Positions 2 through 5,210 of a stretch of DNA of 5,210 nucleotides are shown here, in pieces. The DNA is taken from NCBI GenBank assembly GCA_001717015.1, contig MAGV01000067.1, positions 4,746-9,955 on the forward strand. The letters are read 5' to 3'. A program made the translations under genes and the position numbers. The notes under the pieces are model-generated. The model worked only from the letters and a program-made list of their open reading frames with translations. It ran no database searches and was not told where the DNA came from. Position 1 is the stretch's first letter. Each line of letters starts with the position of its first letter. The stretch is from Candidatus Methanosuratincola petrocarbonis (ex Vanwonterghem et al. 2016). GTDB taxonomy: Archaea > Thermoproteota > Methanomethylicia > Methanomethylicales > Methanomethylicaceae.

Positions 2-67
2 ATCGCGGTAGACCCCGAAGCTGCGGCTGCCAGCCTGGAGGCCATGGCCGGGGAGCTGGTGGGGTAA
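2..67 (+). CDS. C-terminal end of an unidentified upstream gene (partial)
   Basis: Twenty-one codons are open from the window edge to a TAA at 65-67. They encode an Ala/Glu-rich tail ending in EAMAGELVG. One other frame is also open across this stretch, to a TGA at 118-120, but its Arg/Gly/Pro-rich translation looks like GC-rich noise and it would run through the stem-loop at 75-109. The frame chosen here stops just before that stem-loop, as a real gene end would. Too little is visible to name a family. It lies on the same strand as the genes that follow, so it may belong to the same transcription unit. Confidence 0.5.
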   Translation: MAVDPEAAAASLEAMAGELVG

Positions 68-74
68 CGAGGGA

Positions 75-109
75 GCCCGGGTCGGGAGATAGCGGCTCCC
101 GGCCCGGGC
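75..109 (+). terminator. Strong GC stem-loop after the upstream gene, terminator-like without U-tract
   Basis: GCCCGGGTCGGGAG (75-88) pairs with CTCCCGGCCCGGGC (96-109) over 14 positions with a single G-U wobble and a 7-nt loop. It sits 7 bp after the TAA at 65-67. No run of T follows, so it is not a classical intrinsic terminator. It could be an attenuator, a processing or 3'-end-protecting structure, or a terminator of the U-less kind. The structure is directly visible; the role is inferred. Confidence 0.45.
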
Positions 110-115
110 CCACCA

Positions 116-139
116 GGTGACGGTATGGCGCCCGTCACC
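116..139 (+). other. Second stem-loop in the 5' leader of the nuclease gene
   Basis: GGTGACGG (116-123) pairs perfectly with CCGTCACC (132-139) around an 8-nt loop. It follows the 75-109 hairpin almost directly and ends 31 bp before the nuclease start codon, leaving the ribosome binding site at 154-160 free. It may be part of a tandem terminator or leader structure. It could equally be a protein-binding palindrome. No convincing -35/-10 pair was found nearby. Confidence 0.35.
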
Positions 140-170
140 CTCATGATACCACGAGGGGAGTGTAAAGAGA

Positions 171-938
171 ATGGCCGTTAGCGCAATCGGCAACAAGTAT
201 TTTTCGGTGAGCGAGGTCAAAGCTTACCTGCAATGCCCCGTCCAGCACCAGTTCAAATACGTTGAGCGCATCAGCAAGCCGAATCCGCCGGCGGTGACCC
301 GGGGGATCGCCTACGACCGGGGCCTGCAAGCGGTCTACCGGCACCAGCTTGAGACGGGGGAGCTCCCGCCGGTGGAGCTGGCGGAGCAGGCGGCCCTGGC
401 CGCACTGGATGAGCTCATTCCCAACACGGACTGGGCGGAGGACTCGACGGAGGCCGCCCGGGCGGACGTGCAGCAGGCGATAGCGCTGTACATGCAGGAG
501 CTGGCCCCCAAGGTCCAGCCATCGCTCGTCCAGGACAGGTTTCTGGTCGAGTTCGAGAACACCGACTGGGCTTTTTTGGGCTACATCGACCTGGTGACCA
601 CCGACGGCGTGGTGGTGGACAACAAGTTGCTCGGGCGGTCCCCCGTCCAGGACGATGTTGACCAGGACCTACAGCTCACCGCCTACGCCCTCGGTTACCA
701 GGTCAAGTACGGGGGCCTGCCCGCGGGGCTCCGGCTGGACTGCATCATCAAGACCAAGACCCCCAAGGTGGTGCAGGTGGCCACTTCCCGCACGGAGGCG
801 GAGATCAACCGGTTCTTAAAGCTCCTGGGCCACGTGGCCCACGCCATCGACCAGGGCATCATTTATCCCCGCCCGGGCGGGTGGTGGTGCGGCCCGAAGG
901 CATGTCAGTTCTGGATCGAGTGCCACGAGAGATTTTGA
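171..938 (+). CDS. RecB/Cas4-like PD-(D/E)XK nuclease with probable Fe-S cluster
   Basis: Predicted 255-aa single-domain nuclease of the RecB/Cas4/AddB type common in phages, expected to degrade or trim DNA ends during recombination. The N-terminus has the family's SxSEVKxYLxCP signature with C22. The metal-binding core shows D140 in GYIDLV, then D150-x-K152 in VVDNK, then the QxxxY motif Q168-Y172. The C-terminus carries C240-x4-C245-x5-C251, which with C22 gives the four-cysteine layout that holds a 4Fe-4S cluster in Cas4 and AddB. The usual motif I histidine (GxxxH) appears to be tyrosine Y48 in RGIAYDRGL. The ATG is preceded by AGGGGAG at 154-160, ten bases upstream. The next gene starts 19 bp after the stop, so the two are very probably co-transcribed and cooperate. 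It is not a CRISPR Cas4 by context: no cas genes or repeats are visible. Family assignment is confident; exact substrate polarity is unknown. Confidence 0.88.
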   Translation: MAVSAIGNKYFSVSEVKAYLQCPVQHQFKYVERISKPNPPAVTRGIAYDRGLQAVYRHQLETGELPPVELAEQAALAALDELIPNTDWAEDSTEAARADVQQAIALYMQELAPKVQPSLVQDRFLVEFENTDWAFLGYIDLVTTDGVVVDNKLLGRSPVQDDVDQDLQLTAYALGYQVKYGGLPAGLRLDCIIKTKTPKVVQVATSRTEAEINRFLKLLGHVAHAIDQGIIYPRPGGWWCGPKACQFWIECHERF

Positions 939-957
939 GCGAGGAGGAGGATAAGCG

Positions 958-1968
958 ATGTCGCTTCCTGAGAGAGCGGTTCCTGCTGTGAAACAATCCG
1001 AGACTCCGGCGGTGCAGCAACAGCCCTTTGTCCCCATCATCAGCATGGGACTGGAGGCAGCCACCAAGTTCGTGGCCGAGATGAGGGCCTTTGTGGCCCG
1101 GCATCTGAAGGAGGGCGAGGATTTCGGCAAGGTCCCGGGAGCCCAGAAGCCGTCCCTGTGGAAGGCCGGCGCCGAGAACCTGTGCGGCTTCGCAGGCCTG
1201 GCTCCCGAGTTCGAGATCCTGGAGCAGGTCGAGAACTGGGATAAGGGTTTCTTCTACTACAAGGTCAAGTGTCGGCTCATTTACCTCGGCACTGGCCAGG
1301 TGGTAGCGGAGGGCATGGGCTCCTGCAACAGCATGGAGGATAAGTACCGGTGGCGCTGGGCGTTCGAGAACGAAGTGCCGGCCCACATTGACAAGGGCAC
1401 ACTCAAGAGCAAGAGATTCCAGCACAAGGGCAAGTGGTACACCAAGTACCGTATCGAGAACGACGACGTTTACACTCTGGTCAACACCATCCTGAAGATG
1501 GCCGAGAAGCGGGCGCATATCGACGCCACCCTGCGGGCTACAAGGACCTCCGCCATTTTCACCCAGGACATCGAGGACATGCCGGGGGTGGTGGAGGAAG
1601 AGGCTTCGCCGGCGCAGGAGGAGCCCCAGGCCTCTAAGCCCCAGGGTGCTCAGAAGCCCCAAACGCCGAAGCCCAAGACCCAGCAGCCGGCAGCGGCTCC
1701 CGCGGCTGCCCAGACTCCTGCCGCGAACGGCAATGGCTCCGCACCGCCCAACTGGACAAAGTTCTGGGCGCGGATGAAGGAGCTCGGCCTGACTAACGAC
1801 CAGGTGCGGCAGATGGCCGGCGAGTGGATGCAGGAGCCAGAGCTCAAGTCGCTGACCCAGGTCATCAAGAATCAGGCTGACCTCGACATGCTGCGCGAGT
1901 ATATTGAATCCGCAGTCAACCCGATGCCTCCGGACGACATGGCCCCCCCGGAGCACACCGCGGCTTAG
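958..1968 (+). CDS. Phage-type recombination-associated protein, possible ssDNA-annealing protein
   Basis: The 336-aa protein resembles a family often found in phages and integrated elements and usually annotated as hypothetical. Recognisable signatures are EGEDFGKVPG at residues 52-61 followed by KAGAENL, GSCNSMEDKY at about 121-130, NTILKMAEKRA at 176-186 and FTQDIED at 201-207. The KMAxKRA helix recalls the Lys/Arg-rich helix of Rad52/ERF-like annealing proteins; that link is my inference, supported mainly by the nuclease gene just upstream. Residues about 213-264 are a Pro/Ala/Gln/Lys-rich linker with KPQ-like repeats. Residues 265-336 (from NWTKFW) form a small, probably helical C-terminal domain of unknown role, perhaps for protein contacts. 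The start has an excellent GGAGGAGG site (943-950) seven bases upstream. The nuclease-annealer pairing parallels Red alpha/beta and RecE/RecT logic. Presence of the gene is very likely; its function is tentative. Confidence 0.85.
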   Translation: MSLPERAVPAVKQSETPAVQQQPFVPIISMGLEAATKFVAEMRAFVARHLKEGEDFGKVPGAQKPSLWKAGAENLCGFAGLAPEFEILEQVENWDKGFFYYKVKCRLIYLGTGQVVAEGMGSCNSMEDKYRWRWAFENEVPAHIDKGTLKSKRFQHKGKWYTKYRIENDDVYTLVNTILKMAEKRAHIDATLRATRTSAIFTQDIEDMPGVVEEEASPAQEEPQASKPQGAQKPQTPKPKTQQPAAAPAAAQTPAANGNGSAPPNWTKFWARMKELGLTNDQVRQMAGEWMQEPELKSLTQVIKNQADLDMLREYIESAVNPMPPDDMAPPEHTAA

Positions 1969-1983
1969 TCACCACTCCCCTCA

Positions 1984-2016
1984 GGCGGCCGGTGGTGCCC
2001 GCGACTGCCGGCCGCC
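1984..2016 (+). terminator. Perfect 9-bp stem-loop after the 336-aa protein gene
   Basis: GGCGGCCGG (1984-1992) is the exact reverse complement of CCGGCCGCC (2008-2016), with a 15-nt loop. It begins 16 bp after the TAG at 1966-1968, the usual place for a terminator or 3' stabilising hairpin. The sequence after it is ATATACCCCCCC rather than a T-run, so intrinsic termination is uncertain. Confidence 0.35.
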
Positions 2017-2067
2017 ATATACCCCCCCTGGGCGGGAGCAGCGCGGCGCGATGACGCGCACGGCAAG

Positions 2068-2161
2068 CGGTCCCGAAGCCGTTGGGGGACGCCTCCCCCG
2101 CAGGTGCACGAGGTCGCCGGGAGTCGGGCGACGCGGCACGCGGGTAGCCGGGGCAGGACCG
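2068..2161 (+). other. Candidate multibranched structured RNA element
   Basis: CGGTCC (2068-2073) can close with GGACCG (2156-2161) around two internal hairpins. The first is GGGGGA (2084-2089) with TCCCCC (2094-2099) around a CGCC tetraloop. The second is GTCGCC (2113-2118) with GGCGAC (2127-2132) around an 8-nt loop, extended by GTGC (2104-2107) with GCAC (2136-2139) across small internal loops. All stems listed are perfect Watson-Crick. I do not recognise a known riboswitch or RNA family. The fold was drawn by eye, not computed, and the base composition makes alternative pairings easy. Confidence 0.3.
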
Positions 2162-2177
2162 GCCCCCGCCCACCAAT

Positions 2178-2192
2178 ACCTGAAAGGTGGTG
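2178..2192 (+). promoter_or_regulatory. Ribosome binding site of the 122-aa gene, partly in a small hairpin
   Basis: AAAGGTGGTG (2183-2192) is a good Shine-Dalgarno sequence six bases before the ATG at 2199 and fixes that start. The same bases can pair upstream in two competing ways: ACCT (2178-2181) with AGGT (2185-2188), or CACCA (2171-2175) with TGGTG (2188-2192). This could mildly dampen translation, but the stems are only 4-5 bp. Confidence 0.5.
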
Positions 2193-2198
2193 TAATCA

Positions 2199-2567
2199 AT
2201 GAACATCTTCCTGCACGATTGGGCCGAGAGCGGCCTTGAAGGGCTAAAGAACGATTTCCAGATCACAGGCCAGGAGTTAGAGGGCGTCGAGATCCTCCTT
2301 GCCTCGTACTCCTACGAGTGCTGGTCGGGTGAGGCGTTCGTCCTGTTCCGTAAGAACGGCCGTTATTACGAGGTCAACGGCAGTCATTGCTCATGTTACG
2401 GCCTTGAAGGCCAGTGGAACCCCGAAGAAGCCGATCTAAACGAACTATGGAACCGCGTCCAGAACGGCACATTTGGGCGGGATACTTGGACCGGCAACGA
2501 GTTCGCGGAGGAATTGAAACTTTTGTTAACGGAACTGCGGGGTGAACGCGATGATGGAAGGTCTTAA
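2199..2567 (+). CDS. Conserved-type phage protein of unknown function (HCSCYGLEGQW motif)
   Basis: The 122-aa soluble acidic protein has no signal peptide or membrane segment. Its centre is YYEVNGSHCSCYGLEGQW (residues 56-73), with H63, C64 and C66 clustered. It is preceded by an aromatic-rich ASYSYECWSGEAFVLF strand region and followed by NPEEAD. I recognise this combination from small hypothetical proteins of phages and prophages; no function is established to my knowledge. The His/Cys cluster could bind a metal or be structural, which is speculation. A Shine-Dalgarno at 2183-2192 supports the start. Its final 17 bp overlap the helicase start in another frame, suggesting translational coupling. 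It appears less GC-rich than the nuclease and 336-aa protein genes. Confidence 0.82.
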   Translation: MNIFLHDWAESGLEGLKNDFQITGQELEGVEILLASYSYECWSGEAFVLFRKNGRYYEVNGSHCSCYGLEGQWNPEEADLNELWNRVQNGTFGRDTWTGNEFAEELKLLLTELRGERDDGRS

Positions 2568-5210
2568 CCCCCAGCAGGAGGCCGCGGTACTGCATACTAA
2601 CGGCCCCTGCTGCGTGATAGCCGGCGCCGGTTCAGGTAAGACCAGGGTGCTCACGCGCCGGGTAGCACGGTTGATTACCGACGAAGGGATCCCCGCCAGC
2701 AATATCCTCGCTGTAACCTTCACCCGGAAGGCTGCCGGCGAGATGCTGGAGCGGTTGCAGCCGTTAATCGGCGCAGCCGTCGAGGACTTGAACATCGGCA
2801 CCTTCCACTCCATTTGCTACCGTATCCTGCGCGAGGAGTTCCGGGCCCTGGGGCGCCAGATCCCGGAGCCAGCGCAGGAGCACTGGCAGAAGCGGGTCAT
2901 CAAGGAGATCCTGGCCCCGCCCGGGCCGAAGAATCCCGGGGGGTTGAACTGGGACCTGGACGTTTCGGTAGCCATGAGTTTCATCAGCAATCAGAAAAAC
3001 AACCTGCGGGATCCAGAAAACCTGCTGCTGACCGAAAGCCAGGAACGGGACGCCTACCGGTACAAGGCGCTCTATAGGAATTACGAGCAACGCAAGGCTC
3101 AAGAGAACAAGCTGGACTTCGACGACATGCTCCTGTGGTGCTATCAGCTCCTCCGGGATAACCCGGATATCCGCCGGAAGTACCAGGCGCAGTTCAAGCA
3201 TATCCTCGTGGACGAATGCCTTCCTTATGAATGCCCCGTCATGCTATCCGATGGCAACCAGGTTCCCATCGGTGAAATAGTTGAGCAGATGTTGCCAGCG
3301 GAAGTTCTCACCTATAACGAGAAAACAGGCACCCAGGAAGCAAAGCCCATCATTGGCTACCACAAGATTCCCCTTTCTAAGCCTTTATGGCGACTGGTGG
3401 CTCTCCGCAGGGACAATAAGGCCGAAACTGTTCGGCGGGTCAAATACGGGATCAACATCCTTGTAGCAACCGAGGACCACAAGGTATTCACGAGCCGGGG
3501 CTGGTTACCCATCTCGGAGATCAGGGTTGGCGACACAATCCAACTAGAATCCTCGACGGCTATTGCCCCAAAGCCCAAGGGAAACAGGCATTTTAATACC
3601 CTCTATAAGCATTCCGCCACCGCAAAGAAGGCACTAGGCGCCCAGATGAACGAGAAAAACAAGCTAGGCATTTGCGGCCAGACAAGGGGTAACCGCTCCA
3701 TCTCGCAACGCGGCGGAAACGGTCGAGGGCCGACTATTACCGAGAGATTGTTGCTCCAGGAGCTCGGCGAGAGTTGGATCTGGAATTATCCTGTGCCCAC
3801 GGGCGGACAAGGCCACGGCTACCCCACTAACTACAAAATAGACCTAGCAAACCCAGGCCTGATGATAGGGGTAGAAGTAGACGGGAACAGTCATAACTCG
3901 AAATCACGGCAGCAGCAGGACGCGAAAAAGGAGGCCTTCCTGCGGAGCAAGGGCTGGACTATCTTCCTGGTAAGAAATGAAGATGTCCATGCCAGCCTCC
4001 GGGGGGTCGTTGAGAAGATCAATGGACTGGCCAGGCGGGAGGCGGCCTGCGCCGGCGGGGCTGGTTGCCCCGTTGATGGTGAGGTAATAGCCATAGAGCC
4101 AATCAGAGTGAAGACCAAATACGTCTATGACATTACTGTGGCCGACAACCACAACTTCTATGCCAACGGCATCCTGGTGCATAACTGCCAGGACGTGAAC
4201 ACCGCTCAATACGAGATTCTTAAGCTCATAGCGCCTCCCGAGAATAACTTATTCGTGGTAGGAGATGACTTCCAGGCAATCTATGGGTGGCGCAGCGCGA
4301 AGATAGACTACATTATCAACTTTGCCCAGGATTGGCCAGGCGCTAAAATTATCCCGCTTGAAATCAACTACCGCAGCACCATCCCCATCGTGGAGGCCTC
4401 CAACCTTCTTATCAACCGGAACCAGTTCCAGGTGAAGAAAGCCCTCCGGGCCAACCGCGGGACCGGTCCCGAGCCGGTCATCACCCGGGCGGACGACGAA
4501 GACCACGAGGCGGAGCTGGTGGCGGCGGAGATCCAGGCCCTCACCAAAGAAGGCTACCGGTACGGGGACATAGCTTGCCTGTACCGCACAAACGCCCAGA
4601 GCCGCCCCCTGGAAGATGCATTCATCAAGAACCAGATCCCTCACGTTATCCTTGGCGCCACCGGCTTTTATCAGCGCCGGGAGGTCAAGGACGTCATCGC
4701 CTACCTGCGGATCTTGCACGACCCTGGAGATGAAGAAGCTATTCGGCGCGTAATAAACGTTCCCACCAGGTACCTGGGCAAGGTATTCCTCCAGGCCGTT
4801 GAGCAGTACGTGGCCCGGGAGGGGATATCCCTGCTGGAGGCCATGAGGTACTGCCCGGAGACCAGGGAGCGCCGGTACCGGGGGATCTACGAGTTCCTCT
4901 GGGTGATCGACCATCTCCGCCACCTCGCCGAGCACCAGGGCCCGGCCTGGCTGTCGCAGGAGGTGCGGCGGGTAACCGGGTACGACCAGTGGTTGCTCAA
5001 GGAGGAGGGCGAGAGTGACGGGGCCGATAACCACCGCATCGAGAACCTGAACGCCCTGGCTGCGGCGGCCGCCCGGTTCGCCAGCCTGAAGGACTTCCTG
5101 TTCTACGTTGACCAGGTGTCCACCAGGAAGACCGATGATGACGAGAACGGGCGCGGGGACAAGGTGCAACTCATGAGCCTGCACCGCAGCAAGGGCCTGG
5201 AGTTCCCGGT
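2551..5210 (+). CDS. UvrD/Rep/PcrA-type SF1 DNA helicase interrupted by an intein (3' partial)
   Basis: ATP-driven DNA helicase, open for 886 codons to the window edge with no stop. Precursor numbering: Q motif LNPQQ at 5-9; Walker A AGAGSGKT at 24-31 (K30); motif Ia AVTFTRKAAGEM at 54-65; motif Ib GTFHS at 83-87; LDFDDM at 188-193; Walker B split as HILVDE at 217-222 and CQDVN from 546; motif III VVGDDFQAIYGWR at 569-581; motif IV LEINYRST at 603-610; motif V LHRSKGLEFP at 877-886. Motif VI lies beyond the window. Without the 323-residue intein, 563 extein residues are visible, normal for a UvrD-like protein up to motif V. GGGGTGA (2539-2545) sits five bases before ATG 2551; ATG 2554 and in-frame GTG 2542 are alternative starts. 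It overlaps the preceding gene by 17 bp. It probably unwinds DNA in element replication or recombination; UvrD, PcrA and Rep cannot be told apart here. Confidence 0.93.
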   Translation, partial: MMEGLNPQQEAAVLHTNGPCCVIAGAGSGKTRVLTRRVARLITDEGIPASNILAVTFTRKAAGEMLERLQPLIGAAVEDLNIGTFHSICYRILREEFRALGRQIPEPAQEHWQKRVIKEILAPPGPKNPGGLNWDLDVSVAMSFISNQKNNLRDPENLLLTESQERDAYRYKALYRNYEQRKAQENKLDFDDMLLWCYQLLRDNPDIRRKYQAQFKHILVDECLPYECPVMLSDGNQVPIGEIVEQMLPAEVLTYNEKTGTQEAKPIIGYHKIPLSKPLWRLVALRRDNKAETVRRVKYGINILVATEDHKVFTSRGWLPISEIRVGDTIQLESSTAIAPKPKGNRHFNTLYKHSATAKKALGAQMNEKNKLGICGQTRGNRSISQRGGNGRGPTITERLLLQELGESWIWNYPVPTGGQGHGYPTNYKIDLANPGLMIGVEVDGNSHNSKSRQQQDAKKEAFLRSKGWTIFLVRNEDVHASLRGVVEKINGLARREAACAGGAGCPVDGEVIAIEPIRVKTKYVYDITVADNHNFYANGILVHNCQDVNTAQYEILKLIAPPENNLFVVGDDFQAIYGWRSAKIDYIINFAQDWPGAKIIPLEINYRSTIPIVEASNLLINRNQFQVKKALRANRGTGPEPVITRADDEDHEAELVAAEIQALTKEGYRYGDIACLYRTNAQSRPLEDAFIKNQIPHVILGATGFYQRREVKDVIAYLRILHDPGDEEAIRRVINVPTRYLGKVFLQAVEQYVAREGISLLEAMRYCPETRERRYRGIYEFLWVIDHLRHLAEHQGPAWLSQEVRRVTGYDQWLLKEEGESDGADNHRIENLNALAAAAARFASLKDFLFYVDQVSTRKTDDDENGRGDKVQLMSLHRSKGLEFP
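3217..4185 (+). mobile_element. Intein in the helicase Walker B motif, with embedded homing endonuclease
   Basis: A 323-residue in-frame insertion begins with Cys1 (CLPYECPVML) and ends VHN before Cys+1 of the extein, precisely splitting VDE from CQDVN. Splicing block A is CLPYECPVMLSDG. Block B is T85-E-D-H88 in ATEDHKVFTSRGW, followed by ISEIRVGD. Block F is VYDITVADNHNFYANG, and block G is ILVHN/C with the penultimate His, terminal Asn and Cys nucleophile. All residues needed for class 1 protein splicing are present and the frame is intact, so splicing activity is expected. Joining the flanks restores a standard DECQDVN Walker B. Insertion at a conserved ATPase motif is typical of inteins, since any existing allele offers the target and imprecise loss is harmful. 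Between blocks B and F lies a nuclease domain of the Vsr/DUF559-like type rather than LAGLIDADG. Confidence 0.95.
3601..4032 (+). other. Vsr/DUF559-like homing endonuclease domain inside the intein
   Basis: Approximately intein residues 129-272; the borders are by eye. A basic region with RGGNGRGPTITE is followed by LLLQEL, then the nuclease core: YKIDLANP with D209, GVEVDGNSH with E220, D222 and H226, D235-x-x-K238, and GWTIFLVRNEDV. This order (D, E-x-D-G-x-x-H, D-x-x-K, then GW plus a hydrophobic strand) matches the Vsr/DUF559 branch of the PD-(D/E)XK fold. That fold is known in some intein and group I intron homing endonucleases of phage and metagenomic origin, the EDxHD/Vsr-like family. 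The putative catalytic residues are all present, so the domain looks intact. It would cut helicase alleles lacking the intein at the region encoding Walker B. The target is inferred from the insertion point, not shown. Confidence 0.8.

Follow-up and report, generated by a model that had tools for sequence, protein, structure and literature searches.

The DNA stretch analyzed here (the window; 5,210 nucleotides of contig MAGV01000067.1 of Candidatus Methanosuratincola petrocarbonis) carries, in a phage-like setting, a UvrD/PcrA-like helicase gene whose Walker B motif is interrupted by an intein. The sequence makes it very probable that this element is a self-splicing intein, that the DUF559 nuclease fused in frame within it is a likely homing endonuclease, and that it is transferred between helicase genes by homing. 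The complete intein of 323 amino acids occupies positions 3217-4185 of the forward strand. Alignment with PcrA places the insertion point between the residues equivalent to 224 and 225, and the alignment closes exactly over the insert, with the N-extein corresponding to PcrA residues 8-224 and the C-extein beginning at residue 225. The junctions in the window's helicase read VDE/C...HN/CQDVN. The boundaries and the length given in an earlier reading of the bare sequence (the original prediction) proved exact to the base. The homologues without an intein likewise align continuously across the site, both in PcrA and in 119 of the 120 listed N-extein homologues. That the insert is an ordinary helicase domain or a sequencing artefact can practically be dismissed, since the PcrA alignment closes exactly across it and 108 other proteins have the same junctions.

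The intein has C1, a block B TxxH motif, a C-terminal HN and a cysteine at position +1, as is typical of class 1 inteins, and its predicted structure model adopts the HINT splicing fold and matches inteins in a fold search. All splicing residues named in the original prediction (C1, T85 and H88, the penultimate histidine, the terminal asparagine and C+1) were confirmed, and both splicing halves match their families, TIGR01445 and TIGR01443. Besides the nuclease residues, T85, D305, H322 and N323 are invariant in the 82 full-length inteins described below; for C1, conservation has to be read with the restriction that the junction pattern used for collecting itself demands a cysteine. The intein is predicted to splice itself out of the helicase. 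As had been supposed, the unspliced precursor would lack a proper ATPase site and would be inactive as a helicase, and splicing would restore the Walker B motif. Residue 84 (3466-3468), located just before TxxH, is a cysteine in 80 of the 82 full-length inteins; an alanine is found in the window and in the mini-intein P0039.

A protein search with the intein yielded 136 matches, of which the 120 listed were examined together with the window precursor (121 proteins). Sharing of the site was counted by the pattern DE/C...HN/CQD, in which a cysteine is demanded at both places. These junctions are present in 109 of the 121 proteins; the remainder consists of P0070, which has no N-junction, and 11 other proteins. 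The 109 site-sharing inteins comprise 82 full-length inteins with a nuclease (window included), 24 mini-inteins of <200 residues and three inteins of 382 residues. Judged from these sequences, the Walker B motif of UvrD-like helicases appears to be a widespread intein site.

Two further observations were made in this set. The 382-residue inteins (P0084, P0086, P0087) occupy the same Walker B site, lack most DUF559 residues and have a different middle. In 17 of the 120 listed proteins (P0042, P0054, P0060, P0063, P0067, P0068, P0089-P0097, P0103, P0104), a second intein ends at the Walker A loop of the same helicase, so that the ATPase site is interrupted in both its halves; PF05203 and PF05204, the Hom_end families, are present in many proteins with an additional Walker A intein.

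The nuclease domain of the window intein is matched by PF04480 at residues 205-269 with 32.9 bits (cut-off 20.6). A profile with the window as its first row (A2) matches 3hrl (E 3.8e-9) and 3r3p (E 0.0028), the latter a structure titled I-Bth0305I catalytic domain. D209, E220, D222, H226, D235, K238 and N254 are each kept in 82/82 full-length inteins and are all intact in the window; the acidic and His residues among them are candidates for the E-D-x-H-D motif. No LAGLIDADG or Hom_end domain was found among the six Pfam families listed for the window intein at E-values up to 1. To our knowledge, the Vsr/DUF559 type of nuclease is unusual for inteins. A DUF559 gene is placed in the EDxHD homing nuclease family in PMC9403480. 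The domain likely acts as the homing endonuclease of the window intein, and the presence of an in-frame Vsr/EDxHD-type nuclease makes a mobile homing intein the leading explanation.

The G+C content at third codon positions (GC3) is 210/323 (0.65) in the intein as compared to 459/566 in the exteins (0.80 and 0.815; chi-square 27.7, p 1.4e-7). This difference from the host gene points to a fairly recent arrival of the intein. Mini-inteins are frequent at the site (24/109), and P0039, the nearest relative by intein, has no nuclease; the window copy might therefore be an immobile relic, which still splices, has an inactive nuclease and is now inherited vertically as a passenger. We consider this rather improbable, because the seven nuclease-domain residues conserved in 82/82 inteins are intact in the window and the deviating GC3 suggests that the intein has not resided there for long.

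Mobility was examined by selecting pairs with an intein identity >0.8 that exceeded the lower extein identity by at least 0.15; 34 of 5778 pairs passed this filter. The inteins of P0068 and P0069, both 311 residues long, are 98% identical as compared to 69% and 74% identity of the N- and C-exteins. Corresponding values are 99% as compared to 67% and 71% for P0056/P0098, and 83% as compared to 44% and 53% for P0010/P0015. Near-identical inteins in helicases of 69-74% identity are strong evidence, at the level of sequence comparison, that inteins have been transferred. Furthermore, P0068 and P0089 have exteins which are 100% and 96% identical, with a full-length intein in one and a mini-intein in the other; full-length and mini forms in near-identical helicases are expected of a homing cycle with loss of the nuclease. 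In such a cycle, the freed 323-residue intein would cut Walker B-coding DNA that lacks the intein, in a phage that is co-infecting or resident. Repair from the intein-bearing copy would then bring in the intein along with the neighbouring Cys codon, in place of F or Y. The splicing function presumably shelters the nuclease at a site which the phage cannot easily mutate or delete.

The same logic on the target side, the phage setting and an essential motif as target, would also suit a nuclease selected for cutting the intein-less helicase genes of co-infecting phages, as a weapon in competition and not (only) for homing. Nothing in the present data separates the two; near-identical inteins in diverged helicases are, however, what homing predicts, and selection as a weapon appears unlikely. 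Another possibility is a post-translational switch, which the original prediction had offered as tied to redox or temperature: the intein would be kept because conditional splicing sets when the helicase becomes active during the phage cycle. The insertion does split the ATPase motif, and Cys6 of the window intein is close to Cys1, where a local disulphide is possible. This Cys6 is found in only 2/109 inteins (the window and P0039), a pure switch would not need the nuclease residues kept in 82/82 full-length inteins, inteins move between diverged helicases, and 119 listed closest helicases have no Walker B intein. No evidence in support of such a switch was obtained, and it is very unlikely. 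The original prediction was right in recognizing an intein, its Walker B site and the phage setting; its switch idea finds no support here, and it overlooked the in-frame Vsr/EDxHD-type nuclease.

The residue following the insertion site was analyzed in the best 120 of 8000 scored N-extein homologues. DE-x-QD is uninterrupted in 119 of the 120; the exception is P0039, which carries an intein. In the 119 intein-free homologues, the residue after the Walker B DE is Y in 82, F in 35, V in one, T in one and C in none. The window's nearest listed intein-free homologue (66% identical) has F at the site. As the empty site in the window's lineage thus holds F or Y, with 0/119 C, the +1 cysteine was likely introduced by the intein itself, and intein and Cys codon likely arrived together in this lineage. 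Such a joint arrival fits a speculation mentioned in PMC11855218, according to which inteins bring a splicing-friendly +1 residue via the conversion tract. Among the close homologues, P0129, P0135 and P0163 have an uninterrupted Walker B motif and carry intein or Hint Pfam labels, which may stem from inteins at other places in these helicases.

Several observations weigh against homing by a nuclease-bearing intein that brings its own cysteine. Intein-free VDE-C-QDxN occurs in at least 120 stretches of viral contigs, as compared to 85 with F and 113 with Y, numbers which are undercounts because the patterns demand a Val ahead of DE; the motif III pattern is present in 92 of 120 listed intein-free stretches of the C type. 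When each of 81 N-exteins with an intein is paired with its closest intein-free neighbour in the set, the residue in that neighbour is C in 42, F in 35 and Y in 4 cases, nearly all at <50% identity and with L257 alone providing 27 of the 35 F cases. A general rule that the intein always replaces F or Y was therefore dropped, as intein-free C is common in viral contigs, and is kept for the window's lineage only. Identity between P0001 and P0088 is 93% and 99% in the exteins but drops to 71% and 62% in the HINT parts, opposite to what mere loss of the nuclease would give; inteins at the Walker B site may thus also be replaced by other inteins. P0039 is the window's nearest intein relative (HINT parts 69-70% identical) and has no nuclease; either P0039 lost a nuclease or the window gained one. 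A fold search with the whole-intein model returned a list filled by the HINT domain. Finally, neither the helicase N-extein at E 1e-40 nor, at the threshold used, the full-length intein was found in any of 60 other related genomes, six of which gave weak partial matches to the intein; hence, no pair of strains with and without the intein was seen.

Searching a phage collection (50,697 records) with the intein by tblastn gave 52 matching records, none of which matches 80% of the intein at any one place; hence, no in-frame phage record of the helicase superfamily 1 (SF1) type was seen. The nuclease region was matched in 40 records and only the N-terminal splicing part in 12 (DNA polymerases and others). 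In a plasmid collection, 145 records matched and none covered 80% of the query; the 30 plasmid matches listed cover residues 1-108 only, 29 of them in genes annotated as RecA or hypothetical protein and one without annotation. Six of the 40 phage records matching in the nuclease region were opened. All six contain an open reading frame (ORF) for a DEAH-type helicase of superfamily 2 (SF2) with an intein at DE/C...HN/CHH, a position equivalent to that in the window; the CP-T1 helicase matches ResIII and Helicase_C in Pfam, and its intein frame matches PF14890 (E 5.1e-12). The DUF559 nuclease of the six records is read in the +1 frame; the open stretch that holds it has 215-263 codons and is located entirely within the intein DNA, and the five nested +1 ORFs scanned match DUF559 with E-values of 1.2e-11 to 1e-13. 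A single coding sequence spans this region in the GenBank records, named putative helicase, DNA helicase, coil containing protein or hypothetical protein; a separate one for the overlapping nuclease is annotated in 0/6 opened records. An in-frame nuclease had been considered for these SF2 phage matches and was rejected, as the linker read in the intein frame is nonsense and DUF559 is in the +1 frame. The helical linker of the window intein matches no family and is presumably NUMOD-like; a similar stretch also precedes the nuclease in the +1-frame relatives.

A wider scan with a four-row alignment of in-frame nucleases only covered 48 loci from bacterial genomes and the best 80 of 251 loci from viral contigs. 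Of these 128 loci (L407-L534), 83 encode the nuclease in the +1 frame of an intein (67 viral, 16 genomic) and four in frame (all viral, all SF1 with DE/C...CQD), while 41 show no intein part (9 viral, 32 genomic). Where only the N-part is matched and not the C-part, the ORF on the intein side runs through the nuclease, which is offset by +1, in 47/47 loci; seven further loci match the C-part without the N-part. The intein frame is free of stops across 75 nested regions (0 as compared to 291 expected). The six host proteins scanned with Pfam are of SF2 type (ResIII, Helicase_C or SNF2). Many of the junctions that could be placed read DE/C...HN/CHH, others follow DEAH, DEGH or DESH, and some end in HN/S.

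A tree of the nuclease core (107 columns) contains 11 changes between the in-frame and +1 states, at least three of which are forced by starred branches, with 83 of 133 forks open; the row nearest to the window in this tree is the +1-frame SF2 nuclease L455 (53%). With 155 columns, the tree has one frame change (support 80, unstarred, with long-branch warnings), and the window falls into a starred set of seven in-frame rows. The two trees disagree on the number of frame-state changes. The DNA for D-E-C-Q and that for D-E-C-H are identical up to the last base (GAYGARTGYCAN), and we propose that one nuclease lineage could therefore meet both superfamilies. Tentatively, and with somewhat more doubt than confidence, a single EDxHD/DUF559 lineage may have specialized on helicase Walker B DNA, GAYGARTGYCAN (DECQD in SF1, DECHH in SF2). 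It would be fused in frame in SF1 or, as a complete gene, overprinted in the +1 frame in SF2, where the intein would still splice, and would carry its own +1 Cys into alleles without one; inteins would jump between the superfamilies and the two states interconvert.

Known systems resemble these arrangements in part. Dassa et al. in 2009 reportedly described fractured genes in which split inteins have a free-standing Vsr-like nuclease between their halves. These fractured genes likewise associate a Vsr-like nuclease with inteins; the window intein differs from them in being one piece with a fused nuclease, and the SF2 relatives have a separate nuclease gene, yet their intein frame is unbroken through it. 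Inteins of the same host family are treated in the review PMC5874633, which locates those of UvrD, PcrA and similar helicases at the P-loop and contains the term Walker B 0 times; Walker A inteins also occur in the 17 proteins named above. Unlike those P-loop inteins, the window intein is inserted in Walker B (DE/C) and has an in-frame DUF559/Vsr-type nuclease. EDxHD homing endonucleases are exemplified in PMC3943268 by I-Bth0305I of phage group I introns; the window nuclease is housed in an intein rather than in such an intron, and has different DNA-binding additions. According to PMC11855218 (2025), ShiLan-type hidden HNH endonucleases lie out of frame in phage methylases. As in the SF2 relatives, the homing nuclease is out of frame within a stop-free in-frame insertion. 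No splicing domain is detectable in ShiLan, and its nuclease is of the HNH type, whereas the SF2 relatives have intein splicing domains and DUF559, and the window nuclease is in frame. PMC6390638, as far as available, deals with inteins in GyrB and DnaE only. Neither a UvrD intein at Walker B that carries a DUF559 nuclease nor a DUF559 gene overprinted in a splicing intein was found reported in the literature searched, which left out most subscription papers. A widespread Walker B intein site of UvrD-like helicases is thus paired with the DUF559 nuclease class, and three questions can now be tested: whether inteins bring their own +1 nucleophile through co-conversion, whether a single nuclease can recognize, by way of the encoding DNA, a protein motif common to two helicase superfamilies, and whether an intein can remain functional with a homing nuclease overprinted in it out of frame.

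Features of the window, and positions of the +1-frame nucleases in the six opened phage records (L002-L007)
Feature	Position	Strand	Match or remark
PD-(D/E)XK exonuclease-like gene	171..938	+	PF12705 E 9.3e-24; phrog_69 exonuclease E 2.3e-12
Phage protein, function unknown	958..1968	+	phrog_10048 E 8.7e-52
Small phage protein 5' of helicase	2199..2567	+	phrog_21421 E 7.9e-38
Helicase start codon	GTG 2542	+	ATG 2551 or 2554 possible
N-extein, UvrD/PcrA-like helicase up to Walker B Asp-Glu	2542..3216	+	PF00580 E 7.3e-74
N-terminal splicing half, intein residues 1-111	3217..3549	+	TIGR01445 E 3e-7
C1	3217-3219	+	kept in 82/82 full-length inteins
TEDH (T85, H88; block B TxxH)	3469-3480	+	T85 82/82, H88 80/82 full-length inteins
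Helical linker ahead of nuclease	3577..3702	+	two predicted helices, residues 121-129 and 134-150
In-frame DUF559 (Vsr/EDxHD-type) nuclease domain	3703..4032	+	PF04480 E 6.5e-8
Nuclease residue D209	3841-3843	+	conserved among full-length inteins
Nuclease residues E220, D222 and H226 (within E220-H226)	3874-3894	+	conserved among full-length inteins
Nuclease residue D235	3919-3921	+	conserved among full-length inteins
C-terminal splicing half, ending HN (4180-4185; H322, N323)	4069..4185	+	TIGR01443 E 5.3e-9; H322 and N323 82/82
C+1	4186-4188	+	followed by QDVN
C-extein (C+1 QDVN, motif III and later helicase parts)	4186..5208	+	PF13361 E 9.8e-41; truncated at contig end
+1-frame nuclease, L002	2590-3336
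+1-frame nuclease, L003	2722-3348
+1-frame nuclease, L004	2566-3348
+1-frame nuclease, L005	2857-3489
+1-frame nuclease, L006	2722-3348
+1-frame nuclease, L007	2719-3354

The window helicase contains the UvrD N- and C-terminal helicase domains with motifs I, II and III. It scores 489.9 bits against the NCBIfam PcrA equivalog (cut-off 911.2); the contig end removes part of the gene, and the intein divides it. The contig resembles the lysogeny and recombination region of a prophage, followed by the exonuclease and phage proteins at window positions 171-2567. On this contig (L088), ORFs which by eye resemble a tyrosine integrase, ImmA/XRE proteins and an excisionase are located at 2-1216 (-), 1475-2600 (-) and 2974-3769 (+). 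The PHROG label "integrase" of the small protein upstream of the helicase is doubtful, as this product has only 122 amino acids. The GC content of the contig (0.594) is within the range of nine sampled contigs (0.536-0.609); thus, composition gives no argument for mis-binning. Between two of the phage genes, an intergenic stretch of about 230 bases (1969-2198) is rich in G+C.

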